Virus record (IMG/VR): IMGVR_UViG_3300033148_001203
Location: 1 to 31,484 of that record
Direction: 5' to 3' (one strand)
Origin: a virus
DNA length: 31,484 bases
Shown: positions 1,600-30,304 of the stretch, one piece after another
How the letters are laid out: each line of letters starts with the position of its first letter
Numbering within the stretch: position 1 is the stretch's first letter
Program-made: the position numbers and the translations under genes
Notes under the pieces: generated by a model
What the model was told of the DNA's origin: nothing
Seen by the model: only the letters and a program-made list of their open reading frames with translations
The model's database searches: none

Positions 1600-2136
1600 T
1601 TACAATACAAGTCTATTGAAAATTCTCAAATCACCCAGTTGCCACCACTGGCTTAATTCAGACATTACGTTGGGTTGTCCTGAATCATCAGACTCCGTTA
1701 TGGTGATGGCGTTTAGCATGTGGCGTTCAACCCCATAAAAATTCCCACCAATCTCAATATCATTCTGATTCGGCCGAATTAACGATGCTTTGAGATTAAC
1801 AATCCAATTGTTTATTCGATACATCTCAGCGAAGACATACACAGTGTACAATTCATCAGCCTCTTCCATTGGCAATTCCAAGGATTGACCAGCCACCGCC
1901 ACTTGTTCCGTTCCTGAAATTAAATACCCCCCGAGAATATCAACCTGACCATACTCCTCCAAACTCTCGGTTACGGCGAAGGGGCCATTGTAGGTATCCG
2001 TTTCAAAAGAGGTCCCGTCATCGGGGGTGTTGTGCTTATGTTGGTTCCCACCTCGGAAGTAAGGGGGCAAGTCTTTGTGGACGCGAACAACGTCACCCAC
2101 TTGCCTAAATGCCCTGTTGGATAGTATCTTGCCCAT
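1600..2136 (-). CDS. Tail protein of unknown function (178 aa)
   Basis: The ATG overlaps the stop of the upstream gene by one base (TAATG), so translation is probably coupled. The protein is acidic and beta-rich and has no signal peptide, membrane segment or clear catalytic motif. It lies between a 317-residue tail protein and the fibre gene, so a tail-tip or fibre-attachment role is reasonable. I do not recognise the family. The short N-terminal stretch with Arg/His (residues 13-35) followed by repeated hydrophobic strands is the only visible structure. Confidence 0.6.
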   Translation of the reverse strand: MGKILSNRAFRQVGDVVRVHKDLPPYFRGGNQHKHNTPDDGTSFETDTYNGPFAVTESLEEYGQVDILGGYLISGTEQVAVAGQSLELPMEEADELYTVYVFAEMYRINNWIVNLKASLIRPNQNDIEIGGNFYGVERHMLNAITITESDDSGQPNVMSELSQWWQLGDLRIFNRLVL

Positions 2137-3089
2137 TAATCCGTTTCCTGTTGTGGAAGTTTCAGAGTTTTCCAGTCAATTGGAAACAATGTCGCCCTTC
2201 TGAAGGTAATGGCTACCAGCGGAGCCACAACCAGACCACCATTCCCGTCGAGGTTTTGAGGGACTGTTACTTTCGTGTCCTTCTTGCTTCCAGCTGTAAT
2301 GGAACTATCCAAGTCTGATTCACGAATGGCGATTCTTTTGCCGCCAACCAAAGTATAAAATCCAATGTCCAATGGGTCTGCCAACCAACCATAATCCCCT
2401 TCGGCCACGGCTACCTCGTATCGCACTTCAAAGTAAAACTCACCCTCAGCGTCTATCTTGCGAGTGCCCGTGACATTCCGCATCCATCCTTGGAATGGTT
2501 GGAGTTTCCTCCCAGCTACCCTCACGGAATGCAAATTAATGCTTCCCTTGTACAGGCGTTTGGTATCTGCAAGGTACTTTCGTTCATTGCGCTTAATATT
2601 GAGTACGTCGCGAGATTCAGGCTGAACCCATGGCGGATCGGTGAACATGTCACCAGCTGAATTGTCATTAAGTTTAGTGGGCTGTCCTTTTGTCAGAGTA
2701 CCTGGAGTTTCACCATGGCTCATGTAATACCCAGTGACAGCTCGTTGCTCGGTATAAGTGCCGAAATTTATCTCGGGTTTTCTCTTTGTGGGGTCTTCGA
2801 AGTCTCCACGGCGAACAGTGTTGGCCCCTGATGCCGTGTTATAGTCTAAGAACACCGTCCATTTAAACCCATCTTCGCCTTCGCGGGGCTCTGCCCGTAT
2901 TTGCGTTAAAATGGCGGAGCGGTCCTGTTCAAACCTTGTGTTTAGTGGGGGAATTTCTACAATGTCCTTTACTTCGACAACCGTAAGTTCCACGTCACTG
3001 TCAACAATCCATTCGTCAGTATAAACAATTCCAGAATTGGATTTGTTCATTATAGGTGGTTTCTTGTATCTATAAAACGTATAAGCCAT
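2136..3089 (-). CDS. Probable distal tail / tail-tip structural protein (317 aa)
   Basis: This gene starts directly after the tape measure stop codon (TAA then ATG), the usual position for a distal tail protein. The protein has many alternating hydrophobic and polar stretches expected of beta structure, for example VELTVVEVKDIVEIPP at residues 34-49 and GEFYFEVRYEVAVAE near residue 225. No enzyme motif is visible. By position it should cap the tail tube and carry the fibre complex. I cannot confirm a Dit fold by eye. A second in-frame Met (MNKSNSG) at residue 14 is a possible alternative start. Confidence 0.6.
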   Translation of the reverse strand: MAYTFYRYKKPPIMNKSNSGIVYTDEWIVDSDVELTVVEVKDIVEIPPLNTRFEQDRSAILTQIRAEPREGEDGFKWTVFLDYNTASGANTVRRGDFEDPTKRKPEINFGTYTEQRAVTGYYMSHGETPGTLTKGQPTKLNDNSAGDMFTDPPWVQPESRDVLNIKRNERKYLADTKRLYKGSINLHSVRVAGRKLQPFQGWMRNVTGTRKIDAEGEFYFEVRYEVAVAEGDYGWLADPLDIGFYTLVGGKRIAIRESDLDSSITAGSKKDTKVTVPQNLDGNGGLVVAPLVAITFRRATLFPIDWKTLKLPQQETD

Positions 3090-8311: not shown

Positions 8312-9852
8312 TTAACCAACTCCTTGAATGTGTTCGCAACTGTTTTCGGTTGGAGATATTTGGTGTCCAAGTATTTGTACCAATTGTCCAAGCTCCCCTT
8401 GGGGCAACTGTTTTTCCAGAAGTCTTCAACGAAGTATTCATTCCATAACAATAAAGTCGGGATCTTAAACACAGTCGCCATTATGGACAGCCCCGAAGGA
8501 TACCCAAACACGCCTATTGACTCTTTCATAAGGGCAAACGCTTGACTTAGCGTGGTCTTTCCCGTTAAGTCAACCATTGCAGAGTTGGTTTTCATTCCAA
8601 GCAAGTTTGGTACGTAGGTTTCATCCCAGGAAGCACCAACCAGTATCGGCCTCGCCCCTGTTTGTTTTTGGATAAGCTCTATGGCTTCCCTTGTTTTGTG
8701 CAAATTGAATTCTGCTTTCCAATGAGCATACATTCCGTGCGGAACAACGTACACCACAAAATACTTTCCATATTTCGCTTTGTATTGAATGCGAGCTTGT
8801 TTCTCCTCCAGATCTTCATAAATTGGGAAGTGCCAATCAACTTCCCATTGCGGATCAACGTCTTCCAAGGCCGCACCAAATCGAGTGACCCCATTGTACG
8901 CCATAAAATAATCACACCCAAGATGTTTTGGAAATACGGTTCGGCCGTCTTCCAAATAAGCTTCCCGCCATATGGGGTCTTGGTGGTTCTTGTGCTTGAC
9001 GTATCCCGCCGCATTTATAAACGGAACTTTTTGAACATACGGGAATGATCTGTCTCTGTCAGGGCGAGGAGAGGATATCAAAAGATCCGGTATCCCTATC
9101 CCCTTGTCCTTGCAGAACGATTTCAACTTCGTCAATACCCAGTATATGTCACCAATCCCAGGAGGAACCATTATCGAAGCTCTTTGGATCTTTGGGCGTT
9201 GGAAGAAAAACGTTCTTTTGGATTTGACGGGGCGTGTTGTTTTTTGTATCTTAAAACCATACCCTGAAACCAGCGTCGTTAATTGTTCAGGTTCCAACAT
9301 CCATAGATGCTCAACCTCTTTCCAATGATGTTTGAATTCAAAGTCTGGGAAGTCTATGATGAGTCTTCCATTCGGTTTGAGAATACGAAAGCATTCTTCA
9401 AGGTAGGGTCTTGGATCGGGAAAATGTTCCAATACGTCGTTAAGCGTAATAGCGTCGAAGTATTCCGTGGGGAAGTTAACTTCCAATAGGTCTTGGTAGT
9501 GAACATGCTTGGAATGTGCCTTCTCATCGCATGAGAGTTCGACCCCTAGCGCATTTATCCCGTTCATCCTACTAACCATGACAAAGGCCCCGTTTCCACA
9601 CCCTACGTCCAACAATCTTGTTTTGGCTTCGATGCCGTATTGTTGTATCCGCATTTTGGCAACCTTTACGTCCTGCTCGAAAGTGTGGGTGTACTCCTCT
9701 TGGTGGTATTGGTTCTTGTAAAAATCCGCTATTTCTTTTTCGCTTAAATTTACGATTTGGCGTTTGATGCCACAATCCAAACAGACAGCCATGTTCAGTT
9801 TATGAATTACTTGGCGTTCTGATTTTGTGCTTCCGCATACACATAAATCCAT
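8308..9852 (-). CDS. Zinc ribbon + SAM methyltransferase + GT9-like glycosyltransferase fusion
   Basis: Three parts are visible in 514 residues. Residues 4-27 hold C-x-C ... C-x-x-C (Cys4, 6, 24, 27), a small zinc-ribbon. Residues 80-90 (LLDVGCGNGAF) are methyltransferase motif I, with TLNDVLEHFPDP (137-147) and LKPNGRLIIDFPD (158-170) as motifs IV and post-IV of class I SAM enzymes. From ~225 the protein changes: IMVPPGIGDIYWVL resembles the N-terminal loop of heptosyltransferase-like (GT9) enzymes, and GYPSGLSIMATVFKIPTLLLW near the C-terminus matches the GT9 nucleotide-sugar site. It may methylate and glycosylate the same glycan. The next gene upstream in transcription ends in TAATG overlap with this start. 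Confidence 0.82.
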   Translation of the reverse strand: MDLCVCGSTKSERQVIHKLNMAVCLDCGIKRQIVNLSEKEIADFYKNQYHQEEYTHTFEQDVKVAKMRIQQYGIEAKTRLLDVGCGNGAFVMVSRMNGINALGVELSCDEKAHSKHVHYQDLLEVNFPTEYFDAITLNDVLEHFPDPRPYLEECFRILKPNGRLIIDFPDFEFKHHWKEVEHLWMLEPEQLTTLVSGYGFKIQKTTRPVKSKRTFFFQRPKIQRASIMVPPGIGDIYWVLTKLKSFCKDKGIGIPDLLISSPRPDRDRSFPYVQKVPFINAAGYVKHKNHQDPIWREAYLEDGRTVFPKHLGCDYFMAYNGVTRFGAALEDVDPQWEVDWHFPIYEDLEEKQARIQYKAKYGKYFVVYVVPHGMYAHWKAEFNLHKTREAIELIQKQTGARPILVGASWDETYVPNLLGMKTNSAMVDLTGKTTLSQAFALMKESIGVFGYPSGLSIMATVFKIPTLLLWNEYFVEDFWKNSCPKGSLDNWYKYLDTKYLQPKTVANTFKELVK

Positions 9853-10535
9853 TAGAGTGTCTCCTTAAAAGATACTTTTGGGAACATTGTTAACGTTGAG
9901 TGTGGGTTTGCATTAACAACCTTAAAATCCAATTTCTGTGAAACTATGGCATCTTGCATTTCTTGGAATCCGCTTGTATGTAGATGCAAAAGTCCTTTGG
10001 AAGGGCTGTCGGGGTTTTTTAGGTTTGGGTGGTAATTCCTTTCTCCATTTGGTCCGGCTTTCATGTCGAAACCCAGCAACACCACTTTTTTCGCTCCAAG
10101 ATGGTATGCTAGGTTTACAGCGGTTGCGCCACTGCTCTTGTTCCAGGACAGTCCGTCCTTTTCAAGACACATTCCTTTGGGTTGTCGTTTCATCAGCTTC
10201 ACCCATTTGGGCAATTTAGCGGATAGAGCTTCCTTTTCAGGCATGTTGGTGACGCATAGGCCATTGAAACGCCTTAAATTGTCCCAATGCATGTTCCACC
10301 ACCCAGAATCGCCAAAAAAGCACACAGGAACCCAGTCTCGGCAAATTATGGACGACGTAGTGGACCCGTGCCAGTCCCCATAAGCGTCGTTAACCGCAAT
10401 TACCTTCTTCCCTTTTAAGAAAGGCCGTAGGTTAGTATCTTTTAGGGAGGGGCCGCCGCCAATAAGGAAGCAAGTCCCACCCCTCCATATTGGAGGAGCG
10501 GACCACATCTTTCGTTTAGGAGTCATCCTCATCAT
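9852..10535 (-). CDS. MptE/DUF115-like protein of a phage sugar cassette
   Basis: The 227-residue protein has the glycine-rich N-terminal motif CFLIGGGPSLKD (residues 22-33), then VIAVNDAYG (45-53), VPVCFFGDSGWW (69-80) and SSGATAVNLAYHLGAKKVVLLGFDM (134-158). This series is the signature of the DUF115/6-hydroxymethylpterin-pyrophosphokinase-MptE-like fold, which is related to GT42 sialyltransferase-like proteins and is common next to glycosyltransferases in phages. The exact reaction is unknown. Starts at 10535, 10532 and 10526 are all possible; it overlaps the upstream gene by 20 bases at most. It precedes the methyltransferase-GT9 fusion with one-base overlap. Confidence 0.75.
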   Translation of the reverse strand: MMRMTPKRKMWSAPPIWRGGTCFLIGGGPSLKDTNLRPFLKGKKVIAVNDAYGDWHGSTTSSIICRDWVPVCFFGDSGWWNMHWDNLRRFNGLCVTNMPEKEALSAKLPKWVKLMKRQPKGMCLEKDGLSWNKSSGATAVNLAYHLGAKKVVLLGFDMKAGPNGERNYHPNLKNPDSPSKGLLHLHTSGFQEMQDAIVSQKLDFKVVNANPHSTLTMFPKVSFKETL

Positions 10536-10988: not shown

Positions 10989-11972
10989 TTAAGAAGCGGT
11001 CCAGTGGTAGACACCGCACTTCCCTTCTTGGTCCGAACGGATCTGCGGAACCATGATGGTCATCACCTTGAAGTGATTCATCATGCCATCACCGGATTTC
11101 CATTGAACAGGAACGACACTCATTCCAACAACGATGCGGACAACGTCGGAGGTGAGCTGAACCATGATCACATTCCCAGCGGCCATGTAGTCAGCCACTT
11201 GGATGAATTCCAAGCTGTCGGTTTCCAACAGGCGTTGGCGGATGGTGAGATCGCCGTTTGCCTTGAAGTCCTCTTCCAGTTTGGTTTCATACGCGGTCGG
11301 CACGTACAGACCATATGGCCCGAAGTACTTGTCGGCGATGAGGGCCTGTTTCATTGCCAATACTTCGGCAAGGATGGTGGCTCCCGTCGAGCTGGAATCG
11401 GTCCATGCCGTTCCTGATCCAGTGTTACGATCGGGATACGTGGTAAGACCGTAGACCTTGCCACTGCCGAAAGTGAAACTGTAACCGTTGAACAACGAAG
11501 ACTCAACCTTCTCTGCAACCTTACGTGCGGCAACTTCACTCTGGGTGGTATCCAGCGGCAAGCCACGGGTACGCGAGGAATTGAGGACGCGGGTTGAGAT
11601 CTGGAAGCCCTTGTGAACGATTGGGAGGGGCATCTGCGAGAGTTCGTAGACAACACGGTCATCCGCGGACTTCACAATCCCTTCCATGTTTACTTCGGCA
11701 TCGTTCATGTCGCTGATCTTCTCGAATTCCAATACGGTCTGTCCAAGACCATTGGCAATGTCGTAACGCAAGCCACGACTGAGAAGATCACCAACCGACC
11801 GGAGGCGGGAACGGGCAATCTGGACGACGGTCGCGTCCATGCGTTTCCACTCATCCTTCTGGAGAGTGCCGTTTGTGCGCAGAGCGCGCCAGTTCATGTC
11901 GTTCTGCAGGAGAACGGCGGAGACGTCGCCAATGGCTTTGCCTTGGAAGACGGAATCAACAATCGGATCCAT
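10989..11972 (-). CDS. Major capsid protein (HK97 fold)
   Basis: The 327-residue protein follows the protease/scaffold and decoration genes. Its pattern fits an HK97-fold capsid protein of the encapsulin-like branch: N-terminal arm, E-loop region near residues 60-110, and an A-domain with FGPYGLYVPTAYETKLEEDF (residues ~217-236) followed by strands NVIMVQLTSDVVRIVVGM. The sequence FGPYGLYV...Y...L is found in phage capsids related to encapsulin shells. It assembles the icosahedral head. It is the largest single-domain structural gene in the region and is followed by a strong hairpin, as expected for a highly expressed gene. The final assignment to a named family needs a profile search. Confidence 0.85.
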   Translation of the reverse strand: MDPIVDSVFQGKAIGDVSAVLLQNDMNWRALRTNGTLQKDEWKRMDATVVQIARSRLRSVGDLLSRGLRYDIANGLGQTVLEFEKISDMNDAEVNMEGIVKSADDRVVYELSQMPLPIVHKGFQISTRVLNSSRTRGLPLDTTQSEVAARKVAEKVESSLFNGYSFTFGSGKVYGLTTYPDRNTGSGTAWTDSSSTGATILAEVLAMKQALIADKYFGPYGLYVPTAYETKLEEDFKANGDLTIRQRLLETDSLEFIQVADYMAAGNVIMVQLTSDVVRIVVGMSVVPVQWKSGDGMMNHFKVMTIMVPQIRSDQEGKCGVYHWTAS

Positions 11973-17501: not shown

Positions 17502-18538
17502 GCTACTTTTCTCCGAGGTGGGGGATTCTTTCCAGTTTTCTTTCTGTAGAAACCCCTTAATTTCGCAACGCCTTTTTTGTTTTTGTATTGAGCTCCGATA
17601 ATAGGTTTGCGGCGTGGAGTTACATCTTCTATTCCTGGGATAAAGGGGATGGGAACGCATCGGCAGTTAGGATGCAAAGGAATGAGCCCACTTATTTCGT
17701 CCAGTGTGAACACACGGCCTTCCAAATCAGCACAGTCAGGGCAAACGTCCTGAATAGCGGTGGACCATTCCACCAATACGGTTACTCCCTCAATTCCTTG
17801 GGACTTGTATGTGTTCAATGCCCCTTGCACGTGTGCTCGAACTATTTCCGTACGAGCTATGGTCGTGGCACGCTTCAAACCTATGTCAACCAGCTTCACC
17901 ATCTCCCGCGCAACCACCCTTGGATTTTTCCCCTCCGCCAGACCTTGGGCCAATGACCTGCTAATCTGTTGAGCCATACTTTCCGTCACACCCTTCAACT
18001 CGGCAAAATTGCGCTGATACAACAGACGCACGTTCTCAAGGTGTATGGGCTGAAAGAGGGCTCCTTGTGCCATTGTTGCCACTGCTCTTACGCGAGCAGG
18101 TCCACCAGCCACTGACACCAATGAATCGAACACGGCATTGCCCGATCGTTTGGCTAATTCCTCGTATCCCCTTTGAATTCCTTTCGAATACGCCGAAGAA
18201 ACGTAAGTGTCAGCCCAACGCTCATCCACAACTCTCATAGTTGGGCCTGTTTCCAGGAATAGGATTTCTTTTTCCAACATCTCGTTCAACCACACAATAA
18301 AATCACTGAACTTTTCAGGATCAGTGGAGAATGCAAACGCTTTTGGGCCGAGTGCTTCCTGATTGGTTGCCAAATCCAACGCATCGTTGGTATGCACTGA
18401 TTTCGTTATTAGTTGCTTGGCCTTTTTGAACCGTCGTCGTAGTTCAGCAATATAGGAAAGACGAATCCTACCTGTGCGGGTAGGATCTCGAAGGAGTGCC
18501 ATATTGAATACACTTACTCTTTTATTCCGTTGGCTCAT
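17498..18538 (-). CDS. Minor head protein, Mu F / SPP1 gp7-like
   Basis: The C-terminal part has the family mark: ARTEIVRAHVQGALNTYKSQGI, then CPDCADLEGRVFTL and LIPLHPNCRCVPIPF (C-x-x-C ... H-P-N-C-R-C), a metal-binding-like motif. The protein is about 346 residues and comes straight after the portal gene, as in many phages. It joins the portal or enters the prohead and helps head assembly or DNA delivery. The start is uncertain: 18538 (behind AGGAGAATG), 18568 and 18502 (MALLRDPTRTG) are possible. The last ~60 residues are Lys/Arg-rich. It ends in ATGA with the collagen-like gene. Confidence 0.88.
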   Translation of the reverse strand: MSQRNKRVSVFNMALLRDPTRTGRIRLSYIAELRRRFKKAKQLITKSVHTNDALDLATNQEALGPKAFAFSTDPEKFSDFIVWLNEMLEKEILFLETGPTMRVVDERWADTYVSSAYSKGIQRGYEELAKRSGNAVFDSLVSVAGGPARVRAVATMAQGALFQPIHLENVRLLYQRNFAELKGVTESMAQQISRSLAQGLAEGKNPRVVAREMVKLVDIGLKRATTIARTEIVRAHVQGALNTYKSQGIEGVTVLVEWSTAIQDVCPDCADLEGRVFTLDEISGLIPLHPNCRCVPIPFIPGIEDVTPRRKPIIGAQYKNKKGVAKLRGFYRKKTGKNPPPRRKVA

Positions 18539-19961
18539 CATTCTCCTCATCGTCCATATCGTCTTCATCGTCGTCAGTTAGGGCAAAATCGCCGTATGTT
18601 ACTTGCAATTCCTGAACTTGGGCTTCCGTATAACTCATCACAACCCGAAGATACATTTCAAATGGCATGAGTTCGTGAAGCCCACTGGTAACGTACAACG
18701 AATACGATTCAGTTTTAAGTTTCTCAATCTCACTCTTTCTTTTAGCATCGTCGGCTTCAAGAGCAGGCCAATTGATTTCATACTCGGACGGAACGAGGAC
18801 ACCAAAGAGAACCAATCTATCAATAAACGTACGGAGGATATCAACTTCAGCAAAGTCGGTGCGTCTTTCGTCAACGCGTGTGTTCCAATTGTTTTCATCC
18901 ATCACGGAAGCCAACTCACCACGCTCACTTCCAGTAAGGATCCGTGTGGGAATGCCCTTCGCACCAGAAATAAGTGTTAGGGGTGCTTTTAGGTGTTCCC
19001 ATACTTGGGCTATGGCTGGAGCAACTGATTTAACCTCCACCCCTTGAAAGACGCCATGACGCTTCATGCCGTGGACAAATTCTTCGACCTCGTCATTGAG
19101 ATCATCCGTATTGGTAATTTCAACATCCTTGTCTACGTTGAAAAAGAGACCCTGATAAGCACCGAGCCAAAACATTTCTGCATCGCCGCCGCCCACTTTC
19201 TCAATGTTCTTGACGTAGTTAAACACTGACTCAAGGCGTGGGGTTCCGTAGACTTCGCTATCTTCCTTTTCCTCTGCAACATGGATTACACGCGACCAAT
19301 GTACTTCAGTCGCAACTGAGTCATGTGTGCTTTGGTTGCTTAGGTTGCTCTGTAGCGTTATTGAGTATTTGGTGGGTTGGCCGAACCGAGGATCCTTATG
19401 GTTACTCTCCACTTCCAATATCTCAACCTTTCCTTGGGGATAAGCCTGTAGGTAATTGACTGTTAAAGTTGACGCTGAATCGGCAAGTTTGCTCACAGGT
19501 TCTTTCAACGCCTTCCCATCACTGAAACCAATAAACAACACACCAAACTGACCTATTCCGCTCAATATGTCAATCTTTTTGAGATAATGCCATATTCGGA
19601 TTTTTTTAACAAGGCTTTTCCACTCCGTAAGGAACATACTTGCTTTGTCTTTCTTGTCAGGAATGGTTATCTCGGGAATACCCCTCCAACTTGCTTCGGG
19701 AAAAGCCTTCACCACACGCTTACCAATTCCTTCACGTGCCCACATGGCATAATAATCATCGTAAACCAAATTCTTCTTGTACCCTAACGCCGCATACACG
19801 TCACGCTTGCCCTCGTATGATTCCCCTAATTTGGAAAACAGGGCGGCTCTTTGGCTAACTAGACTGGACAAATTCGACAAACATCTTTTTTCTTCGCCTG
19901 AGAGTTTATTGGTGGTGGGCTTACGAGTTGCCTTCTTTTTCTTCTTGGTATCTTTGGGCAT
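18522..19961 (-). CDS. Portal protein (DUF1073-like)
   Basis: The 479-residue protein follows the large terminase and precedes the minor head gene. It has a basic N-terminal tail, then DDYYAMWAREGIGKRVVKAFPEASW (residues ~68-92). Other patterns are HWSRVIHVAEEKEDSEVYGTPRLESVFNYVKNIEKV near 220-255 and GIPTRILTGSERGELAS near 340-357, the hallmark of DUF1073/gp6-type portals. The C-terminal end is highly acidic. It forms the dodecameric channel through which TerL pumps DNA and to which the neck binds. AGGAGATTCATTTC precedes the ATG. Confidence 0.9.
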   Translation of the reverse strand: MPKDTKKKKKATRKPTTNKLSGEEKRCLSNLSSLVSQRAALFSKLGESYEGKRDVYAALGYKKNLVYDDYYAMWAREGIGKRVVKAFPEASWRGIPEITIPDKKDKASMFLTEWKSLVKKIRIWHYLKKIDILSGIGQFGVLFIGFSDGKALKEPVSKLADSASTLTVNYLQAYPQGKVEILEVESNHKDPRFGQPTKYSITLQSNLSNQSTHDSVATEVHWSRVIHVAEEKEDSEVYGTPRLESVFNYVKNIEKVGGGDAEMFWLGAYQGLFFNVDKDVEITNTDDLNDEVEEFVHGMKRHGVFQGVEVKSVAPAIAQVWEHLKAPLTLISGAKGIPTRILTGSERGELASVMDENNWNTRVDERRTDFAEVDILRTFIDRLVLFGVLVPSEYEINWPALEADDAKRKSEIEKLKTESYSLYVTSGLHELMPFEMYLRVVMSYTEAQVQELQVTYGDFALTDDDEDDMDDEENDEPTE

Positions 19962-20016: not shown

Positions 20017-21510
20017 TTATTTCTTCCGCCGCAATGCACCACCAACCCGCTTCTTTGCATTGAGTTTATTGTAGGCTCCTCCGGCGGCATCCACCTGATC
20101 TCGTTGCTTTGCCAAGGGGAACCCACGCATTTCGGCAACAAACTCCCGTGTCCAGGCTCTTCTTAGGACCCATACCTTTCCGTTTTCTACAGCTATGCTC
20201 AGAGGCTCTGCGCGAGCATCCTTGGAACCTGACACCTTGTCACTGTATGCTCGGAACCCCGCAAGGGTTTCACTTATGGTTGTCTCCACACTTTCCTTTC
20301 CGCCGGATCCAGGCTCTTGCTCCACCCATATCTTAACGCTATGTCCATCTAATTCTGCAGTGTTGCGGATGTGGGGTTCTCGGCGGCGTGCATCCCAGCT
20401 ACCACGCACCACGTCAAGGACAATAACACGCTTGTTGGGCATCTCGCCCAACAATACCCCCGCTGTATGTGCCGCGCCCCGTTTGCGGTTGTTCTGCGTA
20501 CCAGCTTTGTCCCAGTACCGTACTTGCTTTAATATCTTGTATGGGGCTTCGTCACAATAATTTAATTGTTTGGTGTCAAATGCATTTCCGCCCTTGGCAA
20601 TGGGGTTCTGTGCCATCTGTCCGCTATATTTTCGAGAACCATAATCCTCCATTTTCTCATCGAGGGTTTCTTGGTCCAGACGAACAGGGTCCATAAACCC
20701 ATTCACATACTTGTCTCTCAATTCAGGTGGATTTACCAAATCACTTTCTTCAGCTGGGATACATATGTGTTTTATTTTCTTTTTGGTCTTTCCCAGCATA
20801 AACCCAGTGGGGTCGTCTTGATGTAGCCTCTGCATGACCATAATCATCGTCGTGACCTTTGGGTCCACATGCCTAGACAAAAGCGTACCTTCTATCCATT
20901 CATTGACATTGCCGAGGTTTACACCACTCACCGCATCTGCGTCCATAGGGTTGATTGGATCATCTATAATGAGATAATGCCCATGCATGCCCGTGACGGA
21001 CCCCAGGATGGAAGTGGTTAATCGTTCCCCTCCTTCCGTATTCTTGAAATGGCTCTTTTGTTTTAAGTCTTCTCTGATTTTAATGTTGGGGAAATAGAGC
21101 TTGAACTTGTCGGAGTTCACAATGTCCCTTGATTTTAGAGCAAGGTCCAATCCCAACTTCTCCGCATAGCTTCCCACGATACTTCTAATAACTGCATCCC
21201 GCGTCCATACCCATATGGGAAACATCTCGGAACAGATTGTGGATTTTGTGGATCCTGGAGGTATGTTAATAATCAAATCATACTCTTTGGGCTTTCTTGG
21301 CTCTATCCATTGTGTCTGTACGTACTGTAATTCGTCACACAGATATTTTAGATGCCAATTCCACACCGCCTTTTCAGGAATAACCACATCCCAAAATTCT
21401 TGCAGGAAGTAATAGAAACTTCTTCTGCATTTTTCAGCTTTGATTTCATGTAGAGGTGGTATCTTTTCTTTATACTGTGCTACTGCTTCAGCCTTCGTTG
21501 ATCTTGGCAT
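20017..21510 (-). CDS. terL: Terminase large subunit
   Basis: The 497-residue protein has both enzyme halves. Walker A is the variant INIPPGSTKST (residues 81-91), Walker B LIIDDP (180-185) and the coupling motif MVMQRLHQDD (224-233). The nuclease half has RYWDKAGT (Asp334), VEQEPGSGG (396-404) and DQVDAAGGAY (Asp474), the acidic triad of RNase H-like terminase nucleases. It cuts concatemeric DNA and pumps it into the head with ATP energy. It lies directly after the small subunit (4-bp gap) and before the portal. The Ser in place of Gly in the usual GxGKS pattern is common in this family. Confidence 0.95.
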   Translation of the reverse strand: MPRSTKAEAVAQYKEKIPPLHEIKAEKCRRSFYYFLQEFWDVVIPEKAVWNWHLKYLCDELQYVQTQWIEPRKPKEYDLIINIPPGSTKSTICSEMFPIWVWTRDAVIRSIVGSYAEKLGLDLALKSRDIVNSDKFKLYFPNIKIREDLKQKSHFKNTEGGERLTTSILGSVTGMHGHYLIIDDPINPMDADAVSGVNLGNVNEWIEGTLLSRHVDPKVTTMIMVMQRLHQDDPTGFMLGKTKKKIKHICIPAEESDLVNPPELRDKYVNGFMDPVRLDQETLDEKMEDYGSRKYSGQMAQNPIAKGGNAFDTKQLNYCDEAPYKILKQVRYWDKAGTQNNRKRGAAHTAGVLLGEMPNKRVIVLDVVRGSWDARRREPHIRNTAELDGHSVKIWVEQEPGSGGKESVETTISETLAGFRAYSDKVSGSKDARAEPLSIAVENGKVWVLRRAWTREFVAEMRGFPLAKQRDQVDAAGGAYNKLNAKKRVGGALRRKK

Positions 21511-23520: not shown

Positions 23521-23903
23521 GATTCACCTTTTTCTTCGGGGTTTACTATTTCATCGATTCGGTTTCCCCACCACCATGCCTCGTCACTATCGGACTCATC
23601 AACCAGTTTCTCGATGCCATTGATAATCGCCTTAAGCTCTGCAACGCGCGCCTTGAGCTCGGCATTATGCCTACTCAATTCAATGCAACTGCTATTCATG
23701 TCGTTGAGTTCAGCCGTCAGCCGCTTGATCTCCTCGCGCTCGGTTACGTCGAGGAAGATAGCGTGTGGCATGCATTGCGCAAAATCAACATTATCACACT
23801 CACCCGGTCGATCAAAATAGCACCCTAGACATTCATCTTCGGATTCAATTTGTGTTTTCTCTAACTTGCGCCCTTCGTACTCGACTATCTGCATTTCTTT
23901 CAT
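23517..23903 (-). CDS. Cys-rich coiled-coil protein (128 aa)
   Basis: The N-terminal ~50 residues contain C-L-G-C-Y-F-D-R-P-G-E-C-D... C, a probable metal-binding cluster. Residues ~55-100 form a coiled coil (EREEIKRLTAELNDM, ELSRHNAELKARVAELKAIINGIEKL). The start overlaps the upstream stop within GGAGGTGAGTCATGA, which also holds the ribosome site. Such small phage proteins often bind nucleic acid or a host partner, but no function can be assigned. Confidence 0.6.
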   Translation of the reverse strand: MKEMQIVEYEGRKLEKTQIESEDECLGCYFDRPGECDNVDFAQCMPHAIFLDVTEREEIKRLTAELNDMNSSCIELSRHNAELKARVAELKAIINGIEKLVDESDSDEAWWWGNRIDEIVNPEEKGES

Positions 23904-24895
23904 GACTCACCTCCAAATTTTTCGGTGCGCCTGAAAATTATCTTCGTGGCATAGAACCAATTCTTTTTGTCCACATATTCAGACGCAATGTCGTTCGTGT
24001 TGCCGTCGCAATCAAGAAAGTGTGCGAACGAATATGCAACGTTGTCAACCGTAAGCCCCTTCGTATTCGTGCGTGGCTTTGAATGTGTGTTAATCGAATA
24101 CGTTGGATAGCCTCTCGACCAGTCGAGCCTGAACCCTATCTCCGTGTAAGGTTCGAGTCTAACGCACTCGCAAACGCCCTCGGTCTTGTTGCACGCCGCG
24201 CATGTCGTGGGGTGGGGATTCTCTCTAAATCCTTGGTTCACCTCAAGTTTCTCGCAGGAGTGATAAGATGCAGTACCAATGAGTAACGAGGCTTCGGGCT
24301 TCTCCACTTCCTTCGGCGGCATTGTCATGCCCGATATGAAAGTTCCTCCGACTACGAGTTCCTTCGGCGGCAACTCCCCAAGCTCGCGCAAGCTGTCTAT
24401 GTGCTGTTGCAGGGCTTCGCGGTTGTTGGGGTGTCGGATGTCGCTTTTGGACAGAGTGGACCCGTAAATTTCTGCATGTGTTATTGTACAGTCCTCGACC
24501 GCTCTCCAATCCACGCCCTTTGGTATCACGCACGCCTTTACGGTGTCCTCTGCGTTCGGTTCGCATGGTCGGGCGCAGTCCCACGCTAACTGATACGTGG
24601 ATGAGTTAGCGACTTCATCGACCATCGTCAAGAATCGCGAACCCCTCATTTCGATAAACGCTCTAGGCGGACGTAATTGCTCTCCGTCATCATTTACCTC
24701 AACGATATCTCCCTGCTTGGGGGTCGGGACGAGGATTAGGTAGCTTTCGTTTATAAAGGCAAATTCTGCTTTTTGCACGTTGCCATTGGCGTCCACAAAC
24801 AATTCGCCGTGCTTCGGGAGTCTGATCCCATCCGCATGCGGCATGTAGCCCTCGGGTACGTTCACTTTGATTTCGTAGGTGTTTGTCTCTTTCAT
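23900..24895 (-). CDS. Unknown phage protein, Cys-rich C-terminus (331 aa)
   Basis: I place the start at ATG 24895 (MKETNTYEIKVNVPEGY), behind AAGGAGTAGAGACC; a longer frame reaching into the tRNA-like gene is excluded. The N-terminal third is acidic with a strand pattern (SYLILVPTPKQGDIVEVNDDG), then IEMRGSRFLTMVDEVANSSTYQLAWDCARPC. The C-terminal third has HPTTCAACNKTEGVCECVRL, a C-x-x-C ... C-x-C zinc-like site. A terminator sits just upstream, so it may begin a new transcript or be read through. I do not recognise the family. Confidence 0.55.
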   Translation of the reverse strand: MKETNTYEIKVNVPEGYMPHADGIRLPKHGELFVDANGNVQKAEFAFINESYLILVPTPKQGDIVEVNDDGEQLRPPRAFIEMRGSRFLTMVDEVANSSTYQLAWDCARPCEPNAEDTVKACVIPKGVDWRAVEDCTITHAEIYGSTLSKSDIRHPNNREALQQHIDSLRELGELPPKELVVGGTFISGMTMPPKEVEKPEASLLIGTASYHSCEKLEVNQGFRENPHPTTCAACNKTEGVCECVRLEPYTEIGFRLDWSRGYPTYSINTHSKPRTNTKGLTVDNVAYSFAHFLDCDGNTNDIASEYVDKKNWFYATKIIFRRTEKFGGES

Positions 24896-24914: not shown

Positions 24915-24942
24915 GAAAAACAGGGAGGAACTAGCTCCCTGT
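24915..24942 (-). terminator. Terminator after the tRNA/tmRNA pair
   Basis: On the minus strand an 8-bp stem ACAGGGAG / CTCCCTGT with a 7-base loop is followed by TTTTC (plus-strand A run at 24916-24920). It ends 33 bases past the tRNA-like gene and would close the stable-RNA transcript. The ribosome site of the next gene lies just behind it. Confidence 0.75.
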
Positions 24943-24975: not shown

Positions 24976-25055
24976 AGTATGCGACGGGACTTGAACCCGC
25001 ATCCACTGTCGTGTTAACGATGCATCCAGTGCTCTACCAATTAAGCTACGCATAC
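24976..25055 (-). tRNA. tRNA-like gene with an abnormal anticodon arm
   Basis: The ends are canonical: acceptor GTATGCG (25055-25049) with CGCATAC (24983-24977), D arm GCTT-AATTGGTA-GAGC, and T arm GCGGG-TTCAAGT-CCCGT. Between the D arm and the variable bases there are 24 nt (CTGGATGCATCGTTAACACGACAG), against 17 in a normal tRNA, and no 5-bp stem with a 7-base loop can be drawn. Removing the six bases GATGCA (25021-25026) would leave a perfect CTGTC/GACAG stem with an eight-base loop GTTAACAC. The amino acid identity cannot be read; GUU in the loop hints at Asn but does not prove it. No CCA is encoded. It may be a damaged tRNA, or one with an insertion. Confidence 0.6.
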
Positions 25056-25084
25056 TCTGCGGATATATACCCGTCCGCTGGGTT

Positions 25085-25441
25085 TGGTGGAGGCGGCGGG
25101 AGTCGAACCCGCGTCCTGCGATGCATCCAATGTTCCATTATACATGCTTTTGCCAGCCTTACTCTTATGACGCGAAGGAGCTGTCTTCCTCCGGCGACCA
25201 GTGTCTTTCAAGTCCTTCTCTGGGCTTGGACATTATGCGTGCCAATTTGACTTCCCTTCAATATGGCTAAAAGGTTAACCAGTCACTCCGGAGAGTAGAC
25301 TAGGCTACAGCTTGCTCACGCAAGCCTGAGAACATAATCGGTTTAGCAATTATCTTCGTGATCGGCTTTTAAGGAGGCCAACCGATCAACCTCCGCATGT
25401 GGTGACATATTCAGCAACACAGTCGAAACCATGTCGCCCCC
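25085..25441 (-). ncRNA. ssrA: tmRNA (trans-translation RNA)
   Basis: The 357-nt gene is complete. The 5' end GGGGGCG (25441-25435) pairs with CGCCTCC (25095-25089), followed by A and an encoded CCA. The D-like arm is ATGGTTTCGACT and the T arm GCGGG-TTCGACT-CCCGC. After TTGGCCTCCTTAAAAGCC a resume codon GCT (25347-25345), preceded by TAATT, opens a tag frame of 15 codons, AKPIMFSGLREQAVA, ending in TAG at 25300. The resume codon is at nt ~95, as in E. coli (90). The tag ends in Ala-Val-Ala, a plausible ClpXP degron. tmRNA rescues stalled ribosomes together with host SmpB. It is flanked by phage genes on the same strand, so it is phage-borne here. Confidence 0.92.
25300..25347 (-). other. tmRNA tag reading frame
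   Basis: This part of the tmRNA encodes AKPIMFSGLREQAVA and a TAG stop. It was chosen because it is the only one of the three frames after the conserved GGCCTC...AAAAGCC segment that begins at a base context like the E. coli resume site (A at -4, T at -5) and ends in small residues. The length (15) is longer than the usual 8-12. Confidence 0.75.
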
Positions 25442-25472: not shown

Positions 25473-25491
25473 GGCGGGTGTGTTACCCGCC
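25473..25491 (-). terminator. Hairpin pair upstream of tmRNA, possible terminator of the upstream gene
   Basis: A 7-bp stem GGCGGGT-AACAC-ACCCGCC lies here, followed on the minus strand by a second small hairpin AGCC-TTCG-GGCT (25461-25472). On the plus strand the first stem is followed by TTTATTATAATA, so it could stop plus-strand reading. On the minus strand no U run follows, so it may instead be a 5' leader or processing site of the tmRNA. A TATAAT string lies just before it on the minus strand, but no -35 box is visible. Confidence 0.35.
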
Positions 25492-27297: not shown

Positions 27298-27885
27298 TTA
27301 GAATTTTTTACCGTGCATATGTTCGCGTCCTGCATTGAACTTCATCTTTTCGCGTATGGCCCCCGTCAGGTTATACCCGAACCCATGGCAGAAGTCCATA
27401 ACGCGAATAACAACGTCTGCCATCTCTTCCTCAACACCCGTGAACTCGGGTATGTGCTCACTCGGGGAATTGTCGTGGCGCAATGCTTCCAAAGCCCCAG
27501 ACAATTCCGAATGCATCAAAGCAATCATCATGCCTTTGTTCCTTCCCTCCTTGTCTTTCCAGAACCCTTTGTCCACCGCATGCTGGTGTATCTCCGTCGC
27601 GAGGTCATCCATATAACCACACGCACGGTTCTTGTCTCGTTCATTCATTGCGTTGGTTCTTTCGTTTTTCAACTCTATCTGTTTCATGTTCCAGATGTGG
27701 ATGTGGGCGGGCTTGCCGTTTGGTGAGTTGGAACGTTCTTCCATCCCGCATAAAATGTAACATCCGCACTTTTTGCAACTTACCTCAATTCTGTGATACT
27801 CTGCGTTGTGATACTCGTAAACAAACTGCTTTGTGTCACAAGCAACGCATGCAACTATTAAACTTTCTTGTATTTTAGAACTCAT
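27298..27885 (-). CDS. Zinc-ribbon + MazG-like nucleotide pyrophosphohydrolase
   Basis: The 195-residue protein has an N-terminal C-x-x-C ... C-x-x-C zinc ribbon (Cys13, 16, 37, 40). The C-terminal part (residues ~90-195) follows the all-alpha MazG/dUTPase-like pattern: MHSELSGALEALRH (Glu127, Glu133), SEHIPEFTGVEEEMADVVIRVMD (Glu154, Asp157; the E-x-x-D part of the metal site) and MKFNAGREHMHGKKF at the end. Proteins with this ending are common in phages. It should hydrolyse a nucleoside triphosphate to the monophosphate and pyrophosphate, perhaps altering the nucleotide pool or alarmone levels. It starts behind AAAGGAAACCACACC and probably leads the leftward operon. Confidence 0.75.
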   Translation of the reverse strand: MSSKIQESLIVACVACDTKQFVYEYHNAEYHRIEVSCKKCGCYILCGMEERSNSPNGKPAHIHIWNMKQIELKNERTNAMNERDKNRACGYMDDLATEIHQHAVDKGFWKDKEGRNKGMMIALMHSELSGALEALRHDNSPSEHIPEFTGVEEEMADVVIRVMDFCHGFGYNLTGAIREKMKFNAGREHMHGKKF

Positions 27886-28182: not shown

Positions 28183-28252
28183 TAGGGGTAATTTTTTATT
28201 CTATGATGGACGTGTTCGTGAACATCAAAACTCACCCCCCCATTTGTTTTGA

Positions 28253-28306
28253 TTTAGGCTTGCCTAAAACTCTTAGGCTTGCCTAAAACTCTTAGGCTTG
28301 CCTAAA
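28253..28306. repeat. Three tandem copies of the TTTAGGCTTGCCTAAA palindrome
   Basis: Three palindromes follow each other with a 19-bp period (unit TTAGGCTTGCCTAAAACTC). Each has 7-bp arms TTTAGGC/GCCTAAA, or slightly shorter, around a TT centre. A further half-like GCCTAGG follows at 28311. Palindromes of this kind are typical dimer operators. They lie between the MazG-like operon and the abnormal island. Confidence 0.75.
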
Positions 28307-28309
28307 CCC

Positions 28310-28758
28310 TGCCTAGGGGCATGGTATGGGCGTGTGGTTTGTTGCGGTTAAGGCGTGTGTAATTACGTGCAAATGCAGGGGGTGTATATAAGGGGGTAGG
28401 GCGGGCGTGTACAACAAAACCTATACAAAACATACTATAAAGCACCCTACAACACAAGGGGGGCACACATACCAGTATACACGTGGGTATTGTATTGCTT
28501 GTAAGGTATGGCGTGTATTGTGGTTTATATAGGGTGTTTTTATGGTAGTGGTATGGGGGTTGTTGTGTGGTGGTATTGTGTGGTGGTATATAATGGGGGT
28601 ATATACTTACGCGTGTGCATGTGGGGCGTTATGCGTATGCATGCGTACACGTAGGGGCACGCATTATGCACACGCGCGTATGGTTGCCATGTGTGGGGGT
28701 GTTATAGCCTGTGCGTTTGTGTGTGCCCTACAATGCCCTGTGTTGCGTTGTGTGCAAT
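28310..28758. other. G+T-rich stretch with no convincing gene
   Basis: The plus strand is dominated by G and T with many TGTG and GGGG runs; open frames on either strand are short and of odd composition. A plus-strand frame at 28542-28760 is Cys/Trp/Val-rich and lacks a ribosome site. Near the left end TATATAAGGGG occurs at 28385-28395. No promoter or RNA can be supported. Confidence 0.5.
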
Positions 28759-28787
28759 AAAAAACCCCCTACCTATGCGGTGGGGGG
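28759..28787 (-). terminator. Rho-independent terminator, leftward
   Basis: On the minus strand CCCCCCACC-GCATA-GGTAGGGGG (one C-A mismatch) is followed by TTTTTT. It would end leftward transcription of the small island genes upstream of it. Confidence 0.7.
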
Positions 28788-28816
28788 TAATGGGGGTTTA
28801 CGTTACTGTGTGTGCT

Positions 28817-28993
28817 TTACAGGCCCTTGTTGTGGGGTTTGCGTTGCGTTGTGCAATATTGCCTATGTTGGCATGTGGGGCAATGGCAAGGCTTGCGCGG
28901 GGGGCGTGCGATTAGTGGCATGTGTTTGTTGTTTGTTGTTTGTAGGGCCTGTGCGTGTGCGTTAGCGGCTTGTTTGGGTGTGTTGTTTGGCAT
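28817..28993 (-). CDS. Small Cys/His-containing protein of the island (58 aa), doubtful
   Basis: The ATG at 28993 lies two bases past the stop of the preceding frame and follows GGGGGG. The protein is rich in Asn, Gln, Ala and Pro and has CHCPTCQHRQYC, a C-x-C-x-x-C ... C metal-like motif near its end. Coding-strand A+C bias is the same as in the H1-like gene. A terminator comes 30 bases after the stop. The bias alone can create open frames, so this is tentative. Confidence 0.35.
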   Translation of the reverse strand: MPNNTPKQAANAHAQALQTTNNKHMPLIARPPRKPCHCPTCQHRQYCTTQRKPHNKGL

Positions 28994-28997
28994 AGTG

Positions 28998-29213
28998 TTA
29001 AACCCCCCATGTGGCACGCCATACAACGCTATTGCCAAACCCGCCAATACTGGCAACGGGCTTTGCTATTGGCATGGGCCTATTTTGCGTTGTTTGTGTG
29101 CTGTAAACGGTTTGGGCGGTATTTGCGGCTTGCGCTACAGTGGCAACCATAGCAAGGCTTATGGGGCCATTGTAGGCGTGTGAGTTTATTTTGGTGGTTT
29201 TAGTGGTGTGCAT
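28998..29213 (-). CDS. Small Thr/Ala-rich protein of the island (71 aa), doubtful
   Basis: It starts at ATG 29213 behind AAAGG and reads MHTTKTTKINS..., then a hydrophobic small-residue part (SLAMVATVAQAANTAQTV). The frame before the ATG passes through a terminator, so the shorter start is preferred. It follows the H1-like gene and shares its A+C-rich coding strand. No family is recognised. Confidence 0.35.
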   Translation of the reverse strand: MHTTKTTKINSHAYNGPISLAMVATVAQAANTAQTVYSTQTTQNRPMPIAKPVASIGGFGNSVVWRATWGV

Positions 29214-29257
29214 AATGTGTGCCTTTGTGTGTGTGTGGGTTTGCGGTGTGTGGTAAC

Positions 29258-29285
29258 AAAAAAGCCCCACCGTTGCCAGTGGGGC
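29258..29285 (-). terminator. Rho-independent terminator after the H1-like gene
   Basis: On the minus strand GCCCCAC-TGGCAACG-GTGGGGC is followed by TTTTTT. It begins eight bases after the H1-like stop codon, so that gene has its own transcript end. Confidence 0.85.
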
Positions 29286-29292
29286 GCATAAC

Positions 29293-29799
29293 CTATTTTG
29301 CAGGCTGTGGGGTAGCTTTGGGCCAAAGCTGTTTGGCGGTTACGTTAGTGGTGTAAACCGTACCATTTTTGGTGGCCTGTTTGGCAAAGGTAAAACCCCT
29401 TTTGGTTTGCAGGTAATTAACGTGCAATTGTACCCGTGCAACCCTATAGCCAAGTTTAGCGGCTATGGCGGCAAGGGTGTGCTTGTTTGCCACTAGCATT
29501 TGGTCAATTTTTGCGGCTTGCGTACCTTGGCGGCTGTTAAACGCCGTTGTGGGCAATGCTACCTTTTTGGGTGTGGGGGTTTTGGGTGTGGTTGCCTTTG
29601 GTGCTACCTTGGCGGGTGTTGCCTTTGCCTTAATGGCGGCGGCGTTTGCCTTTGCAGTGGTGGCGGTGCGGTTACTGGTGGTTGCTTTGGCGGCTTTGGT
29701 GCTTTTTGCGGTTGCCATGTTTGGCCCCTTGTTTTGTGTGCCCTTGTGGGCGTTGCGGTTTGTGTGTGTGGTTTTGGTTTGCTGTGGTGTGTGTGCCAT
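29293..29799 (-). CDS. Histone H1-like Lys/Ala/Thr-rich protein with a C-terminal winged-helix-like part
   Basis: The start is taken at ATG 29799 (MAHTPQQTK, 168 aa) behind ACAGGGGCCAAAC. A second ATG at 29718 (MATAKSTKAAK, 141 aa) has the same leader, CAAGGGGCCAAAC. Residues ~28-85 are a basic low-complexity region of K, A, T and P (AAIKAKATPAKVAPKATTPKTPTPKK), much like histone H1 tails. The last ~70 residues (KIDQMLVANKHTLAAIAAKLGYRVARVQLHVNYLQTKRGFTF) form helix-turn-helix with a wing, similar in shape to DUF3489-type domains. It should bind DNA, perhaps compacting it or binding the nearby palindromes. Composition differs strongly from the rest of the phage. Confidence 0.7.
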   Translation of the reverse strand: MAHTPQQTKTTHTNRNAHKGTQNKGPNMATAKSTKAAKATTSNRTATTAKANAAAIKAKATPAKVAPKATTPKTPTPKKVALPTTAFNSRQGTQAAKIDQMLVANKHTLAAIAAKLGYRVARVQLHVNYLQTKRGFTFAKQATKNGTVYTTNVTAKQLWPKATPQPAK

Positions 29800-29810
29800 G
29801 TTTGGCCCCT
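29713..29810 (-). repeat. Duplicated start signal AGGGGCCAAACATGGCA
   Basis: A 17-bp block that includes ribosome site and ATG occurs at 29713-29729 and again at 29794-29810, exactly 81 bases (27 codons) apart and in the same frame. This gives two equal starts for the H1-like gene. Confidence 0.7.
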
Positions 29811-29842
29811 GTGTTGGTTGTTTGTGTTGGTGTATGCCACTA

Positions 29843-29870
29843 CCTATATGCAAGGGTTAAGCAATTGCAA
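29843..29870 (-). promoter_or_regulatory. Candidate promoter of the H1-like gene
   Basis: On the minus strand TTGCAA (29865-29870) and TATAGG (29843-29848) are 16 bases apart and 43 bases before the first start codon. Each box matches the sigma-70 consensus at four of six bases. Confidence 0.35.
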
Positions 29871-30013
29871 GGGGCTACTAATGCCCGTTATGCCTGTTAT
29901 GTGCCTTTGTGTGGTAGTATGCCATTGTGTTGCAATGTGTTAAGTGCTATAAAAGTTTTTTTGCAAAAAGCCACATAATGGCCATTTGTTACAATTTAGG
30001 GCCTCTAAAAAAC

Positions 30014-30205
30014 TTTAGGCTTGCCTAAAAAATGGCGGTGTTTTTGCCGCTGTTTGGTGGGTTTGCGGCTGTGTTGCGCCGTGCCATATTTTGCGGTTTT
30101 GTGTGGTGTGTTTTAGGCTTGCCTAAAACAGTTAGGTGTGGGTAATGGTTTTAGGTATGGCACAAAGTTTTAGCCTTGCCTAAAATGTTTTAGGGTTGCC
30201 TAACA
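30014..30205. repeat. Dispersed TTTAGGCTTGCCTAAA palindromes upstream of the H1-like gene
   Basis: Perfect copies lie at 30014-30030 and 30111-30128. Variants TTTTAGCCTTGCCTAAAA (30168-30185) and TTTTAGGGTTGCCTAACA (30188-30205) follow. Further half-sites (TTAGG, TAGGCG) lie between and after them. They are the same family as the array at 28253-28306 and precede the leftward H1-like gene. Confidence 0.75.
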
Positions 30206-30304
30206 TTTTTAGGCGGGGGTTAATAGTGACCCCTTAAAAGCCACATACACATATATAAGGGGATGTTGCACCTGTAATTTTTTGATCTGGAAATTTACCA
30301 AAGG

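Follow-up and report, generated by a model that had tools for sequence, protein, structure and literature searches.

The window, by which we mean the whole stretch of DNA analysed, is an entire virus record of 31,484 bases, and this record is probably part of a larger genome. It contains a one-piece tmRNA gene that is followed by a tRNA-family gene and has phage-type genes on both sides (Table 1).

The tmRNA gene and its neighbours

Table 1. Features of the tmRNA locus and of the phage genes around it
Feature	Position	Strand	Evidence and remarks
One-piece tmRNA (ssrA), 357 nt, CCA encoded	25085..25441	-	ARAGORN and RF00023
Tag reading frame, GCU...GCC UAG, encoding AKPIMFSGLREQAVA and stop	25300..25347	-	ARAGORN coding part, gene positions 95-142
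Pseudoknot PK1, GGAGG/CCUCC and UGAUCGGUU/AGCCGAUCA	25359..25394	-	Stem search; gene positions 48-83
Candidate PK2-PK4 region	25154..25281	-	Stem enumeration in one sequence
tRNA-family gene, separated from the 3' end of the tmRNA by 29 nt	24976..25055	-	RF00005, 51.0 bits, E 2.5e-8
GC hairpin, ACAGGGAG-loop-CUCCCUGU, then UUUU	24915..24942	-	Direct reading
Hairpin resembling a terminator, GGCGGGTGTGTTACCCGCC TTTATTAT; upstream of the tmRNA, opposite strand	25473..25491	+	Pattern scan
Hypothetical protein gene, next after the tRNA-family gene	23900..24895	-	ORF; start ATG at 24895
Terminase large subunit	20017..21510	-	phrog_38, E 2.3e-80
Portal protein	18522..19961	-	phrog_146, E 4.5e-53
Major head/virion structural protein	10989..11972	-	phrog_771, E 7.8e-33; phrog_264
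Phage-type pyrophosphatase, upstream of the tmRNA	27298..27885	-	phrog_3301, E 2.3e-28

The tmRNA was called with identical ends by cmscan, whose match to RF00023 covers the full length of the model (positions 1-374; 119.1 bits, E 3e-46, far above the gathering score of 47 bits), and by ARAGORN, which reports it as the sole tmRNA of the window and assigns to it the tag AKPIMFSGLREQAVA followed by a stop. The earlier note, made from the letters of the window, had proposed a complete tmRNA with matching acceptor ends, a canonical T arm and an encoded CCA; the gene is borne out to its exact coordinates, and the other elements can be read directly from the sequence. Thus, the acceptor stem (GGGGGCG/CGCCUCC) carries G3-U70, the alanine identity pair, the T arm (GCGGGUUCGACUCCCGC, AAGCAUGUA) is canonical, and A73-CCA is encoded. 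Taken together with the Rfam alignment, these elements make up a tRNA-like domain, which has no anticodon arm.

The tag frame proposed by the note is the one that ARAGORN calls, with the codons GCU AAA CCG AUU AUG UUC UCA GGC UUG CGU GAG CAA GCU GUA GCC UAG. The hexamer AUAAUU lies directly 5' of the resume codon GCU, which cmscan aligns with the Rfam consensus, and a GGCUUGC/GCAAGCU hairpin precedes the UAG that ends the tag. PK1 is clear and has the textbook form. Stem enumeration in this single sequence yields candidates for PK2 (gene positions 161-187, UGGUU/AGCCA and CCUUU/GAAGG), PK3 (211-244, GUCC/GGAC and CCAG/CUGG) and PK4 (254-288, GAAG/CUUC and CAGCU/GGCUG), the region of PK2-PK4 having low posterior probabilities, and thus weak support, in the Rfam alignment. 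These features bear on the idea that the molecule is a decoy, i.e., a tmRNA-like RNA that titrates host SmpB or otherwise blocks host trans-translation. A molecule consisting of the tRNA-like domain only, and resembling a sequence of phage DS6A, does inhibit tmRNA strongly, perhaps via SmpB titration (PMC4131195); a decoy would not, however, need an open tag frame with a stop, a resume region and pairings for PK1 and the candidate PK2-PK4, all of which are kept here, and we regard such a role as very improbable.

The tRNA-family gene has an anticodon arm that is about 7 nt overlong (CUG GAUGCAUCGUUAACACGA CAG), does not encode CCA and was missed by ARAGORN at default settings; with introns allowed, ARAGORN called it Cys(GCA) with a 9-nt intron, a call that we do not trust. 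The 11-mer UGGAUGCAUCG is common to this gene and the 3' part of the tmRNA, and the palindrome GATGCATC occurs in the window only at these two places. A match to the Y RNA-like family YrlA (RF02553) at 25000-25133 was rejected, as it scored 32.8 bits against a gathering score of 69 and is a composite of the T arm of the tmRNA and the D arm of the tRNA. The tRNA-family gene may share a transcript with the tmRNA, and the GC hairpin beyond it is a possible terminator of this tmRNA-tRNA unit; with a T run of only 4, that hairpin was not picked up by the terminator pattern scan, which returned 2 sites in all against 0.9 expected by chance.

The abnormal anticodon arm of the adjoining gene, as well as the departure of the tag end from the usual, would suit a decayed, non-functional passenger. 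Such decay is in our opinion very unlikely, since the tmRNA has kept G3-U70, its T arm, CCA and PK1 as well as the resume region intact.

Phage context and probable origin

Downstream of the tmRNA and on the same strand are genes for the terminase large subunit, the portal, head morphogenesis and a tail fibre, as well as for a head maturation protease-like protein, head decoration, the major head protein, the neck and a tail assembly chaperone, together with a weak holin match. Upstream are small genes, one of them similar to phrog_3474, and the pyrophosphatase. The tmRNA therefore has phage-type genes of its own (minus) strand on both sides, as the earlier note had stated. Since, in addition, no integrase was found among the contig proteins scanned, the gene lies within phage DNA, and a prophage junction in ssrA was rejected on the same grounds; the contig itself may be a fragment. 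Nothing seen suggests assembly chimerism at the tmRNA. The hypothetical protein next to the tRNA-family gene has no PHROG or Pfam match. SmpB, which the note had proposed to look for in the phage, is absent from the contig, so the tmRNA would rely on host SmpB.

Several other features of the contig were observed. An alpha-2,3-sialyltransferase family match (phrog_4603, E 2.4e-27) lies at 9852-10535 (-), with methyltransferase and glycosyltransferase genes nearby. A TTTAGGCTTGCCTAAA-like sequence is present six times at 28245-30220, in one cluster at about 28.25 kb and another at 30.0-30.2 kb; the clusters flank a gene-poor stretch of ~1.7 kb with a strong G>C and T>A bias on the plus strand, possibly an inserted element or a replication or regulatory region. 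Within this skewed region, an ORF at 29293-29853 (-) encodes an Ala/Lys/Thr-rich protein with a more ordinary C-terminal part; the product has no PHROG or Pfam match and is possibly histone-H1-like. Reading TAG as sense in the gene-poor right part increased the apparent coding only slightly, and table 11 was therefore kept.

Across about 85,000 genomes, each representing one species, an exact match to the 22-nt 5' end of the tmRNA is present in only three contigs, which come from Lentisphaerae, Verrucomicrobia or Victivallales MAGs (L132-L134) and have the tags ANEEYALAA, ANTELALAA and ANEEYALAA. Such a match would fit a host ssrA at a prophage-host junction, or host DNA captured recently, that has no function for the phage; integration at ssrA is known, and one of the origins proposed for phage ssrA genes is imprecise excision (PMC9004378). 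However, the terminase and portal genes downstream and the pyrophosphatase upstream, the failure to find an integrase among the proteins scanned, the many differences and the quite different tag relative to the chromosomal tmRNAs found, and the lack of smpB nearby all speak against such an origin, to which we assign a very low probability.

Tags in Verrucomicrobiota/Lentisphaerota are mostly short (ANEEYALAA type), unlike that of the window, although two tmRNAs of the phylum (L162 and L163) have tags of the same style as the window's, AKDNVISFPGAAPEAMAA and AKDNVISFSSAAPEAMAA. Among the matches listed, the best-scoring viral tmRNA in global pairwise alignment (L101) has the tag AKDIVEFPGLQARAA, which likewise resembles AKPIMFSGLREQAVA in its AK... 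start and FxGL; it differs in length (415 nt versus 357 nt) and in its tag end (RAA versus AVA). Given the longer tags of the AK...F[PS]G type in that phylum and in another virus, the window's tag represents an established style in divergent form. The presence of this style within Verrucomicrobiota/Lentisphaerota points to descent from there; the tmRNA thus probably derives, directly or via other phages, from a tmRNA of that phylum, the last residues of the tag having diverged. The affinity is moderate and is carried by the tRNA-like domain and PK1 only.

The phage may infect Verrucomicrobiota/Lentisphaerota. Its terminase is closest to those of Bacteroidota phages (about 40%), so this host assignment is tentative. 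When 289 genomes from the likely phylum were searched for prophage terminases, 8 gave matches, all of them weak or partial. Relatives were recovered by terminase (29-50% identity) and portal (about 32-38%); the gene adjoining the tRNA and the pyrophosphatase yielded none. The search for the same tmRNA in related phages, proposed by the earlier note, was negative: no tmRNA was present in 90 related or terminase-bearing loci.

The tag end and the proposed function

The tag ends in AVA and so departs from the Ala-Ala end of the canonical ssrA degron. Among the matches listed, the tags of viral contigs and the window comprise 65 distinct sequences (the window's own included, and a few others probably miscalled), of which 56 end in AA, 43 of these in LAA; AVA is found in the window's tag only. 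Of 87 Verrucomicrobiota/Lentisphaerota tmRNAs, picked from matches to the window's tmRNA and some of them from near-identical genomes, 84 have tags ending in AA and none in VA. The distinctiveness that the earlier note had ascribed to this end therefore holds in both sets. VVA occurs once among the 65 tags, in the tmRNA of L036 at 2041-2457 (-), for which a 33-residue tag, GEDNIAGLLDEAAAIMNNADAVLAGAEVAEVVA, with Gly as the first residue is predicted. Three permuted (two-piece) viral tmRNAs (L064, L097 and L125) have predicted tags ending in AGR, which would not be degrons of the usual type unless ARAGORN misread the frame.

Of the elements of the E. coli tag, the final two alanines matter most and provide the principal contact with ClpXP; substitutions at either position increase KM and leave Vmax almost unchanged (PMC7652416). 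LVA, AAV and SVA variants serve as degradation tags (PMC9382460). The KM effect and the use of these variants suggest that AVA would still act as a degron, though a weaker one, provided that the host protease does not differ.

We consider it likely that the window encodes a functional phage tmRNA that rescues ribosomes with host SmpB and whose AVA degron is probably weaker. The RNA would probably share a transcript with the phage genes next to it and with the tRNA-like gene downstream, be processed, and be charged with alanine through G3-U70. During infection, a time at which messages are being cut, it would act with host SmpB to free ribosomes stalled on the broken ones, and AKPIMFSGLREQAVA would follow the charged Ala in the peptide added to the stalled protein. 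The end AVA would still act as a C-terminal degron, probably a weaker one than host tags ending in LAA or MAA, so that the phage would benefit chiefly from recycled ribosomes and less from fast destruction of the tagged proteins.

A stronger version, in which AVA represents a shift away from the host degron (LAA/MAA), such that ribosomes are still rescued but the tagged proteins of the phage are broken down at a lower rate or by a different protease, appears unlikely to us, if less so than the alternatives considered above; the earlier suggestion that a phage tmRNA might redirect tagging found no direct support. If the stronger version were true, phage tmRNAs would comprise a class in which the tag end has been altered recurrently (AVA in the window, VVA in L036). 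Altered ends allow a direct test of whether phages want ribosome rescue only or protein destruction too; no experimental test of the purpose of a phage tmRNA was found in the searchable literature. The window's tmRNA offers one clear case, from a phage that may infect Verrucomicrobiota/Lentisphaerota, a group whose phages are poorly sampled.

Comparison with known tmRNAs

The earlier note called phage tmRNAs rare. They are indeed uncommon, but they are well documented: an earlier list comprised mycobacteriophages and phage G (PMC4131195), and a later survey reported a tmRNA in 402 of 18,146 phage genomes, a share that it puts at 2.3% (PMC9004378). Our blastn search of a phage collection matched many annotated phage tmRNAs, many of them from Streptomyces phages and some from others. 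Likewise, an IMG/VR scan for the exact T-arm/acceptor/CCA end gave at least 119 stretches, in most of which ARAGORN found tmRNAs, from dozens of viral contigs. A tmRNA in a phage is thus not new as a kind; the unusual feature is the tag end.

Like bacterial one-piece tmRNAs (RF00023, ssrA), that of the window combines a full-length model match with a G3-U70 acceptor, T arm, PK1, resume codon and encoded CCA, as well as candidate pairings for PK2-4; it differs in lying in a phage contig and in its tag end, AVA rather than (L/M)AA. With the tmRNAs of mycobacteriophages (Bxz1, Cali, Wildcat and others), Bacillus phage G, Streptomyces phages and Melnitz, it shares completeness and a position among phage genes, although its phage is unrelated to these carriers. 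The Melnitz tmRNA is a two-piece molecule, whereas the window's is one-piece, and the tags of Streptomyces phages among the matches listed end in LAA, whereas the window's tag ends in AVA.
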